Shown piece after piece: positions 15,305 through 18,340 of a stretch of 40,333 bases of DNA (its first letter is position 1; the number at the start of each line of letters is the position of its first letter). The DNA lies in contig JAJZGY010000020.1 of NCBI GenBank assembly GCA_021804785.1, positions 1 to 40,333 on the forward strand, read 5' to 3'. A program made the translations under genes and the position numbers. Below the pieces are notes generated by a model. That model saw nothing but the letters and a program-made list of their open reading frames with translations, was not told the origin of the DNA and did not search any database. The stretch comes from Pseudomonadota bacterium (GTDB taxonomy: Bacteria; Pseudomonadota; Alphaproteobacteria; Micropepsales; Micropepsaceae).

Positions 15305-15778
15305 CTAGTAGACCCAGCCATTGGTGCCGGCAGCGGCTCCCAGCACGGTGATGACGCTGATGATGAGGGCGATCCAGTGCAGGCGCTGCAGCAGCGCGAG
15401 GGTCTGTGCAGGGGCCCTTGCGCCGCGTTCCTCCAGCCACTCCTCGACAAAGAGAGGTTCGGCGATGAAGAGGACGACGATAAAGAGCGTCCATACGAGC
15501 AGCATCGCATCAAGCCACCAGTAGGTCGGTACGAAGAAGTAGGGCCACAGCCCCAGGACCAGTACCATATAAAGTCCGCTTGCGCCGGCCAGAAGCGTCG
15601 CCGCCCGCGCGTGCCAGGCAAAGCGTCCTTCAATGCGCCGGAACATGGCGAGGCCGTCGTGCGGATTGTCCATCGCCCGGGCAGCGGGAAGCAGCACGGT
15701 CGTGACCATGGCCACGCCGCCGATCCACCAGACGATGGCGAGAATATGAAGGGCAACAGCGAGGGCGATATCGTTCAT
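15305..15778 (-). CDS. Small four-helix membrane protein (CopD-like)
   Basis: A 157-residue integral membrane protein with about four helices: IALAVALHILAIVWWIGGVAM, ATLLAGASGLYMVLVLGLW, WWLDAMLLVWTLFIVVLFIAE and LIISVITVLGAAAG. The N-terminal histidine within LHILAIVWWIGG resembles the helix-1 haem or metal site pattern of CopD-like proteins. The ATG at 15778 shares its A with the NnrS stop (TGATG), so it is co-translated with NnrS. The frame extends upstream to 15814 but that part would lie inside NnrS. Its position suggests an accessory role in NO metabolism, perhaps haem or copper handling in the membrane; this is inference only. Confidence 0.75.
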   Translation of the reverse strand: MNDIALAVALHILAIVWWIGGVAMVTTVLLPAARAMDNPHDGLAMFRRIEGRFAWHARAATLLAGASGLYMVLVLGLWPYFFVPTYWWLDAMLLVWTLFIVVLFIAEPLFVEEWLEERGARAPAQTLALLQRLHWIALIISVITVLGAAAGTNGWVY

Positions 15779-16980
15779 CAGGTCCTGAGCATGGCCTGAT
15801 CGCGCGGTCGACACAACATCGGGCCGTAGCGAAGGACGAAGAGAACGAAGGCGGTGATCCAGAAGCCCGCCGCCACGCTCAGGAGCGGCAAGGTCCAGAT
15901 CGGAGAGAAGGCGGCAATAATGCGGAAGAGCGCTGCCAGCAGCACGGCACCATAGAGGAGCGTGGTCGTGCGGTCAGCGGTGAGCTTGCGGCCAGTGTGG
16001 CCACGGGTGGCCCGTGTCATTACTCCAAGAATGGTGGTGCCGGCCGCGCCCACGGTCATGGCATGGATGCCGGCGCTCAGGGGCACGGCCGGGCTCAGGA
16101 TCGCGGCCCCGAGCAAGCCCGCACCCGCGCAGAGCCAGCCATAGCCAATGTGCAGGATAACAAGCAGGGGTTCGGCAAGGGTGCGGATGCCTTGCCAGCG
16201 TGACAGGCGCCACAGATTGGCGATGGCGCTGAAGATGAGAAGAATTCCTGCTGCCGGCAGATGCGGGAAGAACGCCCAGGCAAAGAGCCCGAGATGAAGG
16301 CTGGCAAGGGCGACGCGGTCAGCCGGTCCGGGCATGGCGGGAAGCGCGGTCACGCGGCGCTGTGACAGCCAGTTGCGGGTGAAGCCCGGAATGATGCGCC
16401 CGGCGATGACCGAGACCAGGACGAGCACCGCGCCAAGGCCAAGCCGCCAGCCGAGGCCGTTGGGAACAGCAACCCCGTTGGCCTCAAGATGCATCAGCAG
16501 ATTGGCAATCGTGAGCACGATGACCGGCATGATCATGGGAATGTTGCGCCGGTCTTTGCCGGCGATGAGTTCGCGGGCGACGATGGCGCTAAGCGCCAGC
16601 GGAAAGGAAAGATCGGCAGCGATGGCAAGCCAGGCCGGCAGCCACTGGGAGATCAGGCAGCTGACGCGCCCGAGAAGCCAGAGCGCGGCGAGGATGCCGA
16701 GCGGTGCGCCGCTGACGGGCATGCGGCGGGTCCAGTTCGGTATGGCCGTGAGCAGGAAGCCGGCCACTGCAGCCATGATGAAGCCGAAGAGCATTTCATG
16801 GATGTGCCAGGCGAGAGGATCAAAGCGGCTGGGCAGGCGCAGCTGGGTATTGAGCATGGTGATCCAGAGCGCCAGCGCTACCGCCGCCCAGATCCCGGCG
16901 GCAAGGAAGAACGGACGAAAGCCGCCGGTCAGAAGTGTCAGCGCGCGCGCCGGGCGCGCGCGCATCGCAGCCGCGCTCAT
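15778..16980 (-). CDS. nnrS: NnrS family haem-copper membrane protein
   Basis: A 400-residue, roughly 12-helix membrane protein of the NnrS family, known for haem- and copper-containing proteins that relieve NO stress. Family marks are the start (LTGGFRPFFLAAGIWAAVA), WHIHEMLFGFIMAAVAGFLLTAIPNWT with its conserved His pair, AGRIIPGFTRNWL, and GIHAMTVGAAGTTILGVMTRATRGHTGR. The ATG at 16980 overlaps the stop of the upstream globin-NorB chimera by four bases (ATGA), and the CopD-like gene follows with a one-base overlap, giving a tight three-gene operon. The first codons carry an 11-bp GC inverted repeat that could affect initiation. Intact family residues make this probably the functional member of the operon. 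Confidence 0.92.
   Translation of the reverse strand: MSAAAMRARPARALTLLTGGFRPFFLAAGIWAAVALALWITMLNTQLRLPSRFDPLAWHIHEMLFGFIMAAVAGFLLTAIPNWTRRMPVSGAPLGILAALWLLGRVSCLISQWLPAWLAIAADLSFPLALSAIVARELIAGKDRRNIPMIMPVIVLTIANLLMHLEANGVAVPNGLGWRLGLGAVLVLVSVIAGRIIPGFTRNWLSQRRVTALPAMPGPADRVALASLHLGLFAWAFFPHLPAAGILLIFSAIANLWRLSRWQGIRTLAEPLLVILHIGYGWLCAGAGLLGAAILSPAVPLSAGIHAMTVGAAGTTILGVMTRATRGHTGRKLTADRTTTLLYGAVLLAALFRIIAAFSPIWTLPLLSVAAGFWITAFVLFVLRYGPMLCRPRDQAMLRT
16941..16963. repeat. Alternating GC inverted repeat at the start of nnrS
   Basis: GCGCGCGCGCC and GGCGCGCGCGC form perfect 11-bp arms around a single G. The repeat covers codons about 6-13 of nnrS (residues RARPARA). Alternating purine-pyrimidine sequence of this kind can form Z-DNA or a very stable mRNA stem near the start codon. 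Confidence 0.6.
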
Positions 16981-17795
16981 TCGGCGGGCTCCATGACCTG
17001 ATTGACCCGATCACCTGCCGGAACGAGGACCTGCAAAAAACCAGGCACGAGGGGACGCAGCTTGACGAGGAAATCCCACGCCATCACGAGGGCCCCCAGG
17101 GCGAACACGAAGTCGCCCGGCATGCGCATCCATTGCCGGAACAATGTGGTGTTGTAGAAGGCCTGGCTGCGGGCATAGGCAAGAGCGTGATCATAGACGG
17201 CGGCAAGCTGTGACCAGCCGATCGGGAAGAAGTTGAACACGATCCACAGCAGCAGCCCGCCATTGTAGAGCCAGAAGACCCAGCGTCCGGCCCTTTCGCC
17301 GAATGGATGGGCATCGCCGGCTTCATACCGCAGGCCGAAATAGATCAGCCCGATGCCAAGCAGGCCAAAGGCACCGAACAGCGCTGTATGGGCCTGGTTG
17401 AGGGTGAGGAAAGTTGCGTGTTCATAATAGTTCACGAGCGGGGCATTGAGCAGGCCGCCGCCGAACACGCCGGCTCCGACGAAGTTCCAGAACGCGGCGC
17501 CGATCACATAAAGACAGGCAAGACCGTATTTGAAATCACCATGGACCCTGATGAGGTGATGTTGCTCGATGGCTTCGATGACGAGGAGCATGAGTGGCAG
17601 CACCTCGATGACGGAGAACATTGAGCCGATCGGCATCCACATGCCAGGTTCGACGGCCCGTTCGGCGATGGCGGAATTGAAGATGGGCCCGAGCTCTGTG
17701 TCGTTGCGGATCTTGGCGTAGAAACCGTGCCCGAGAGCGTGGATCTGCTCTTCGCTGGGAATGGTTGCGGCCCTGGATCCACCCGGCTCGGACAT
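16977..17795 (-). CDS. Chimera: truncated-haemoglobin N-terminus joined to NorB-type C-terminus
   Basis: A 272-residue product made of two unrelated parts. Residues about 12-43 (SEEQIHALGHGFYAKIRND, then ELGPIFNSAI) match the first helices of group III truncated haemoglobins. From about residue 51 (GMWMPIGSMFSVIEVLP) to the end it matches the last third of quinol-type NO reductase NorB, including VNYYEH, FWLYNGGLLLWIVFNFFPIGW and MRMPGDFVFALGALVMAWDF, with about five membrane helices. The globin haem pocket and all NorB helices bearing the haem b and FeB histidines upstream of this point are absent. In the usual NHGH haem motif the sequence is NQAH (Q134, H136). The simplest origin is an in-frame deletion fusing adjacent globin and norB genes. 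The ATG at 17795 excludes 15 upstream codons lying in the operator. The frame is open throughout, so it could be an expressed remnant. Confidence 0.82.
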   Translation of the reverse strand: MSEPGGSRAATIPSEEQIHALGHGFYAKIRNDTELGPIFNSAIAERAVEPGMWMPIGSMFSVIEVLPLMLLVIEAIEQHHLIRVHGDFKYGLACLYVIGAAFWNFVGAGVFGGGLLNAPLVNYYEHATFLTLNQAHTALFGAFGLLGIGLIYFGLRYEAGDAHPFGERAGRWVFWLYNGGLLLWIVFNFFPIGWSQLAAVYDHALAYARSQAFYNTTLFRQWMRMPGDFVFALGALVMAWDFLVKLRPLVPGFLQVLVPAGDRVNQVMEPAE

Positions 17796-17808: not shown

Positions 17809-17833
17809 AAACAAGTATAATCAATACTTGTTT
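17809..17833. promoter_or_regulatory. 25-bp palindrome, probable NsrR operator of the leftward operon
   Basis: Perfect arms AAACAAGTAT and ATACTTGTTT around the 5-base centre AATCA. It begins 14 bases upstream of the chimera ATG (minus strand). Its placement next to an Rrf2/NsrR gene makes it a likely binding site for that regulator, covering the leftward promoter or leader. Confidence 0.7.
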
Positions 17834-17858
17834 TCAACACTATTGCCGGGAGAGGCGA

Positions 17859-17883
17859 AAAGCAATATTGTTGATATAGCTTT
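17859..17883. promoter_or_regulatory. Second 10-5-10 palindrome, probable nsrR self-operator
   Basis: Arms AAAGCAATAT and ATATAGCTTT around TGTTG, with one mismatched pair. It has the same 10-5-10 design as the palindrome centred 50 bp to the left, shares its AAA...TAT/ATA...TTT outline, and ends 19 bases before the GTG start of the regulator. This suggests autoregulation. Confidence 0.55.
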
Positions 17884-17902: not shown

Positions 17903-18340
17903 GTGCGGCTGACCGTCTATACCGATTATGCGCTGCGGCTTCTGATGTATGTGGCGCTCAAGAACGAGGGTCTGGTCACCATCCAGGAGGTGGCCGGCGC
18001 CTATGGCATCTCGCGCAACCACCTGATGAAGGTGGCCTATGACCTTGGCCGCTTCGGCTTCCTGGAGACCGTGAGAGGCCGTGGCGGCGGGCTGCGCCTT
18101 GCCCGCGCCCCCGAAAAGATCGGCTTGGGCGAGGTGGTGCGCAGGATGGAGGAGGATTTCACGCTGGTGGAATGCTTTGCCAAGGATTCGAGCAATTGCC
18201 GCATCGAAGGGCCCTGCCGGCTCCAGCATGTGCTGGGTGATGCGCTGCATGCCTATCTTGACGTTCTGGACGGCTACAGCCTCGCAGATCTGACCGTGCG
18301 CAACGCTTCCCTCGCAAAGCGTCTTGTGGCGGTCGGATGA
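17903..18340 (+). CDS. nsrR: Rrf2-family NO-responsive regulator (NsrR-like)
   Basis: A 145-residue transcription factor. The start RLTVYTDYALRLLMYVAL and the winged-helix segment ISRNHLMKVAYDLGRFGFLETVRGRGGGLRLAR (two pieces of one region, residues 36-68) are typical of NsrR. Three cysteines at positions 91, 99 and 105 (ECFAKDSSNCRIEGPC) are placed to hold an Fe-S cluster, and Asp8 matches the non-cysteine ligand described for some NsrR proteins. NO damages the cluster and releases repression. The family almost always starts at this RLTVYTDYA position, so I use the GTG at 17903; GTG 17891 and the upstream ATG-like frame are less likely. It sits divergently from an NO-metabolism operon and four bases before the nitronate monooxygenase gene, with which it is probably co-transcribed. 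Confidence 0.9.
   Translation: MRLTVYTDYALRLLMYVALKNEGLVTIQEVAGAYGISRNHLMKVAYDLGRFGFLETVRGRGGGLRLARAPEKIGLGEVVRRMEEDFTLVECFAKDSSNCRIEGPCRLQHVLGDALHAYLDVLDGYSLADLTVRNASLAKRLVAVG

Follow-up and report, generated by a model that had tools for sequence, protein, structure and literature searches.

What is an open reading frame (ORF) that begins as a globin and ends as an NO reductase: a new gene, or the relic of two old ones? The question is raised by a fusion ORF in the window, by which we mean the whole 40,333-nucleotide stretch of DNA that was analyzed. The ORF listing and its translation place the fusion on the minus strand, with 272 codons from 17795 to 16980 and a TGA stop at 16977–16979, as a single in-frame ORF at 16977–17795 that had been described as a globin–NorB chimera in an earlier note. 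A GTG start at 17840 is also possible; the ATG at 17795 was chosen because it aligned with the globin starts of two related genomes, G005 and G020.

The first 45 codons of the fusion (17661–17795, minus strand) were 64% identical to the G005 globin and 76% identical to that of G020. The best solved relative of the G005 globin was a group III truncated haemoglobin (PDB 2ig3, E 1.4e-16), which agrees with the assignment of the 40-odd N-terminal residues made in the earlier note. Fusion residues 1–45 match the first helices of 2ig3, but everything past residue 45 of a 139-residue globin is lacking (the intact G005 gene has 139 codons counted from the matching ATG). Analyzed alone, this 45-residue part had no Pfam match. 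The proximal histidine of the globin haem pocket presumably sits in the part deleted from the fusion.

The remainder of the ORF was also as the earlier note had it, the C-terminal part of a quinol-type NorB. Residues 47–263 (17007–17657, minus strand) correspond to codons 552–768 of the 777-residue G005 NorB, including its C-terminal helices, with 85% identity, and G005 NorB groups with the quinol-type NO reductases (3ayf, E 3.4e-126). The Pfam COX1 profile matched residues 50–229 of the fusion over profile positions 268–435 of 436 (E 2.2e-18). These residues are homologous to the last part of quinol-dependent NO reductase (qNOR; PDB 3ayf, 8bgw); unlike qNOR, the fusion has neither the first ~550 codons nor the histidines that bind FeB and haem b3. 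The Pfam, NCBIfam and genome searches revealed no other family with the same N-terminus as the fusion, and none unrelated to globins.

Intact versions of both parental genes were present as neighbors in related genomes, as expected of a deletion-fusion pseudogene. The locus of G005 contains, in order, a divergent Rrf2 gene and the genes for the globin, the ferredoxin FdxA, a Crp/FtrB-like protein (other strand), NorB, NnrS, a 169-residue membrane protein and an RND pump (other strand), and that of G022 contains Rrf2, globin, FdxA, a 155-residue ORF, NorB and NnrS. The globin, FdxA, NorB and NnrS genes are each open and full length in both genomes. The outer neighbors in the window are those of G005 in the same order, with a gap that extends from globin codon 45 to norB codon 552. 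Approximately 3.2 kb is missing relative to G005 (3192 bp between the codons, or 3189 if the common TGG codon is counted once). This collinearity supports the earlier proposal of a deletion between neighboring globin and norB genes, intact copies of which were found in this order in G005 and G022 and not elsewhere in the window genome.

The globin homology stops at 17661 and the NorB homology begins at 17657, inside the interval of 17646–17666 in which the junction had been placed. At the corresponding positions of G005, the sequence is GAC TGG GAT in the globin gene and TAC TGG GCA in norB, giving ACTGGG in common in the same frame, and ACTGGG is also common in frame to the G020 globin and G005 norB. 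With G022 norB, the common block shrinks to TGGG and one further matching A. The joint (17657–17662, minus strand) is now AACGGG, and the window reads GAA CGG GCC at residues 45–47 (17655–17663). We infer a single deletion of approximately 3 kb, probably by recombination at the 6-nt in-frame microhomology ACTGGG in globin and norB, which would have removed the final two thirds of globin, all of FdxA, whatever gene lay between and the first ~550 norB codons. A deletion between ACTGGG repeats would yield an in-frame product directly, and two subsequent substitutions would account for the present letters at the joint. Fusions of gene remnants left by deletions in operons are of a known general kind. 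The present fusion resembles them in its in-frame joint at a short repeat, its collinear intact relatives and its relaxed NorB part, and is unlike them in that the operator and the stop/start overlap with the next gene have been retained and in that a sister species has a parallel loss.

The residues that remain bear on whether the product could still reduce NO. The ligands in AxqNOR are His486, His537 and His538 for FeB, His629 for haem b3 and His631 for haem b (PMC10256718). When the PDB chain with those numbers is aligned with the NorB from locus L021, they correspond to His496, His547, His548, His639 and His641 of the latter. In L021 numbering all three FeB histidines lie before the joint (homology begins at codon 552) and are deleted from the fusion, and an essential glutamate (L021 Glu500) and the N-terminal cytochrome c-like domain PF22085 (L021 NorB residues 48–219) are likewise absent. 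The haem b3 histidine is Gln134 in the fusion, by alignment to AxqNOR, and the haem b ligand, His136, is kept. Judged from these residues, the fusion cannot work as a qNOR enzyme, and the earlier statement that it is not a normal NO reductase was upheld. The ligand claim behind that statement was correct as to NQAH in the window and the lost FeB histidines; the motif it had expected, NHGH, occurred in one of 17 related rows, with NHAH in 15 and NHSH in one.

Searches of the window genome (96.3% complete, 171 contigs) identified no second globin, with no match to PF01152 at E 0.001 or to PF00042 at E 0.01. No second NO reductase of the haem-copper type was found in that genome, flavodiiron NO reductases being outside the search. 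Besides the remnant, PF00115 matched two COX1-type genes of full length, with open frames of 571 and 679 residues, which were taken as ordinary oxidases because a full NorB query matched the remnant alone.

The fusion, with its junction, was found in one genome only among those examined. It was not identified in any of 68 other genomes of the genus (E up to 0.001), in any of 384 other genomes of a class sample (E up to 1e-10; four are genus genomes) or in any of 46 GTDB loci, which come partly from the same genomes as the genus set and may leave out records very near the window's own. A search of plasmids matched 53 records, two of which cover at least 80% of the query; among the 15 matches listed, these two begin at residues 49 and 50. 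A globin–NorB protein family was considered as the identity of the ORF and rejected, a second member being absent from the searches made. In the literature, we found no report of a globin–NOR fusion or of operon coupling with pseudogenes.

Across 34 distinct intact NorBs, 99 columns are invariant. The NorB part of the fusion breaks seven of these (G48V, which is beside the joint, F62V, H134Q, C154G, A173V, G204A and W220R), and the maximum for any intact NorB in a leave-one-out comparison was three. This set consisted of frames longer than 450 residues containing NFFPIG, a motif that includes none of the seven broken columns. It comprised 40 loci with 34 distinct segments, the duplicates L036, L037, L066 and L073 being removed, and the motif and length filter left out L023, L031, L034, L067, L072, L075, L079, L080 and L081. 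Without the motif filter there were 52 loci (42 distinct), or 50 loci (40 distinct) at an identity of at least 55%, with duplicates collapsed and L079 missing. The window breaks 6 of 81 columns among the latter 40 NorBs, where the most distant member (56%) alone breaks more, nine. When two homologues of 35–37% identity were added, the window breaks 3 of 43 columns, compared with 10 and 7 in the added pair.

Polarized amino-acid changes in the NorB part numbered 20 for the window versus 5 for G005 (7 unresolved, chi-square 9.0), or 18 versus 7 with G022 (L022) as the sole outgroup (chi-square 4.84). The corresponding ratios for control genes were 27:31 against G005 (42 unresolved) and 12:20 against G020 for nnrS, 9:5 against G005 and 7:7 against G020 for Rrf2, and 23:27 against G020 for the RND pump.

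In codon models run with our own script, whose omega values call for caution because some branches are long and synonymous sites may be saturated, the dN/dS comparison proposed in the earlier note gave an omega for the NorB part of 0.120 on the window branch versus 0.045 in the background (LRT 6.93). Relaxed selection was thus detected in this part, with a whole-branch omega that is still below 1 (omega = 1 rejected, LRT 14.38). Some post-deletion constraint on the NorB part is possible, because part of the window branch predates the deletion; assuming normal constraint up to the deletion and none after it, the values imply a post-deletion share of approximately 8% of the branch. No relaxation was detectable in the 45-codon globin stub (omega 0.146 versus 0.117, LRT 0.03), for which omega = 1 was not rejected (LRT 0.88). 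There was no significant difference for Rrf2 (0.217 versus 0.131, LRT 0.87), the 169-residue protein (0.246 versus 0.104, LRT 1.63) or the RND pump (0.026 versus 0.036, LRT 1.46), and nnrS had an omega of 0.057 on the window branch versus 0.115 elsewhere. By these measures of sequence change, the NorB part of the fusion is decaying. We consider it very probable that the fusion is a real, young and decaying deletion scar of an ordinary kind. Its product is in all likelihood a dead remnant, whose sole present effect would be to keep ribosomes moving on into nnrS. Within the limits of these data, the earlier note was thus right about the origin of the fusion as well as about the observation.

The scar appears to have kept the upstream signals of the globin gene. 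The leader contains a putative palindromic operator, AAACAAGTAT-N5-ATACTTGTTT (17809–17833), whose 10-bp arms are perfect inverted copies separated by 5 bp, which accords with the operator that had been claimed for the fusion's own leader. Only 18 of 5000 base shuffles gave arms of at least 9 with spacers of 0–10. The arms are identical in G020; the site aligns in G005 and G022 but is imperfect there, and in those leaders the best perfect arms lie at different sites and have 5 and 6 bases. The palindrome resembles the NsrR consensus gATGyAT-N5-ATrCATc (PMC1274295) in its N5 spacing and its core. The divergent gene at 17903–18340 (plus strand; GTG start picked by eye) encodes an Rrf2-family regulator of the NsrR/RirA-like type (PF02082, E 1.5e-34). 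Its NCBIfam scores were 135.1 bits for RirA (cut-off 193) and 125.7 bits for NsrR (cut-off 182). The regulator falls below both cut-offs and scores higher for RirA than for NsrR, and the NsrR control proposed in the earlier note is therefore likely rather than proven. A TATTGC-N15-GCAATA block (17841–17867) was found in six of six aligned leader regions and, by eye, is possibly part of overlapping divergent promoters. The fused frame would still depend on the promoter, operator and start of the globin gene, and is presumably transcribed and translated.

At its other end, the fused frame would terminate in the former norB stop codon, and there the ATGA overlap reported in the earlier note is present: the start codon of nnrS (15778–16980, minus strand; PF05940, E 2.8e-109) overlaps the fusion's stop. 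The end of nnrS is in turn overlapped by the gene for the 169-residue membrane protein (15305–15814, minus strand), which is kept in G005 and G020 and scored above cut-off against no family in Pfam or NCBIfam. Relatives of this protein with 44–45% identity were observed near norB in L038 and L063.

The same overlap was found in G020, a closer relative of the window than G005 (nnrS 87.1% versus 74.5%, Rrf2 86.0 versus 80.5, RND pump 94.3 versus 91.7). This sister genome has full-length globin and FdxA genes, and norB is absent. Its FdxA frame (L028:8049-8423) ends in GGC GAA TGA, versus GCC GAA TGA at the end of norB, and overlaps nnrS as ATGA, and it looks like a frame that now ends on the apparent last norB codon. 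The window retains a norB remnant; therefore, the common ancestor of the window and G020 most simply had norB, and on the gene identities the two losses would be separate events.

These observations bear on an alternative in which selection maintains the fused frame as a coupling leader: nnrS would be translated by ribosomes coming off the ORF before it, with only those in-frame deletions that keep ATGA surviving. It would refine the deletion-scar reading and does not exclude it. Of 13 norB/nnrS loci examined, L065 was set aside as having another ORF between the genes, and in 9 of the remaining 12, where norB lies directly before nnrS, the two genes overlap by NTGA in frame with nnrS, NTG being the putative nnrS start codon. 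The overlap persists in the window and also, between fdxA and nnrS, in G020, where norB was lost separately. This hints at selection for coupling to nnrS, and nnrS remains constrained. Against this, two in-frame events are weak evidence, each having one chance in three of arising by chance, the overlap is missing in 3 of the 12 loci, and the other nine may not be independent cases. In addition, simulations of neutral decay of the NorB part (substitutions only, indels not modeled) reproduced the 14–17 amino-acid changes with approximately 20–25 substitutions and were free of stops in 46–51% of runs, and therefore the surviving frame needs no selection. On balance we hold selection for a coupling leader to be possible yet doubtful, and to that extent the earlier suggestion of a relic kept for translational coupling to nnrS may still be right.

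A broader proposal is that norB is lost repeatedly in sister species and that in the surviving deletions some ORF still terminates at the start of nnrS. The fusion would then have been selected for coupling, or might even partner NnrS in the membrane, in an organism of nirK type that lacks NO reductase; this we regard as rather improbable. If coupling to nnrS does matter, it may act as a filter on which deletions survive, and the locus would offer a natural case for selection on translational coupling to nnrS.

A new function for the chimera as a membrane protein, perhaps as a partner of NnrS, we consider very unlikely. The open frame, the inherited leader and operator, five hydrophobic stretches and the whole-branch omega below 1 are in its favor; its faster change, its broken invariant residues and its occurrence in a single genome among those examined speak against it. 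An AlphaFold2 model of the fusion had a mean pLDDT of 61.2, with all but one of residues 1–60, including the globin stub, below 50. The model does not support a stable new fold, and it is weak evidence either way because the alignment was shallow (18 rows). The remaining alternative, that the assembler wrongly connected two genes that are intact in this strain or in a related one, would fit an assembly of 171 contigs but was rejected as highly improbable, since the donors have only six common bases at the joint, below the usual k-mer join, the NorB part is altered at columns invariant in the 34 distinct intact NorBs, including that of a haem ligand, and no leftover intact pieces were found in the 96.3% complete genome.

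Under the preferred reading, that of a decaying deletion scar, the locus shows the loss of NO reductase in progress, with a fresh in-frame scar in the window, a clean loss in the sister genome and intact genes in other relatives. The full NorB query matched 18 of 60 sampled genus genomes, including the remnants of the window and of G021, in which only norB fragments were found. The G021 locus (L035:6860-7843) has an Rrf2 gene beside scattered norB fragments and is a further decayed NO reductase in the genus.

A NirK-like fragment (the last 58 residues; 36.5 bits, below cut-off) was observed at a contig edge (L112:2-178; C158:2-169 of G000). This fragment of C158, the sole nirK match of the window genome, suggests a nitrite reductase in the organism, and G020 has a nirK match above cut-off. 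In one survey, 35% of nirK organisms were without a canonical nor gene (PMC4250227). The fusion locus would represent one route by which nirK organisms come to lack nor.

Outside the genus, the norB loci L053–L061, from nine Acetobacter and Gluconobacter species, each had 67.4–67.7% identity to the L021 NorB, and similar genes sit on Acetobacter plasmids. The near-equal identities together with the plasmid copies hint at recent transfer.
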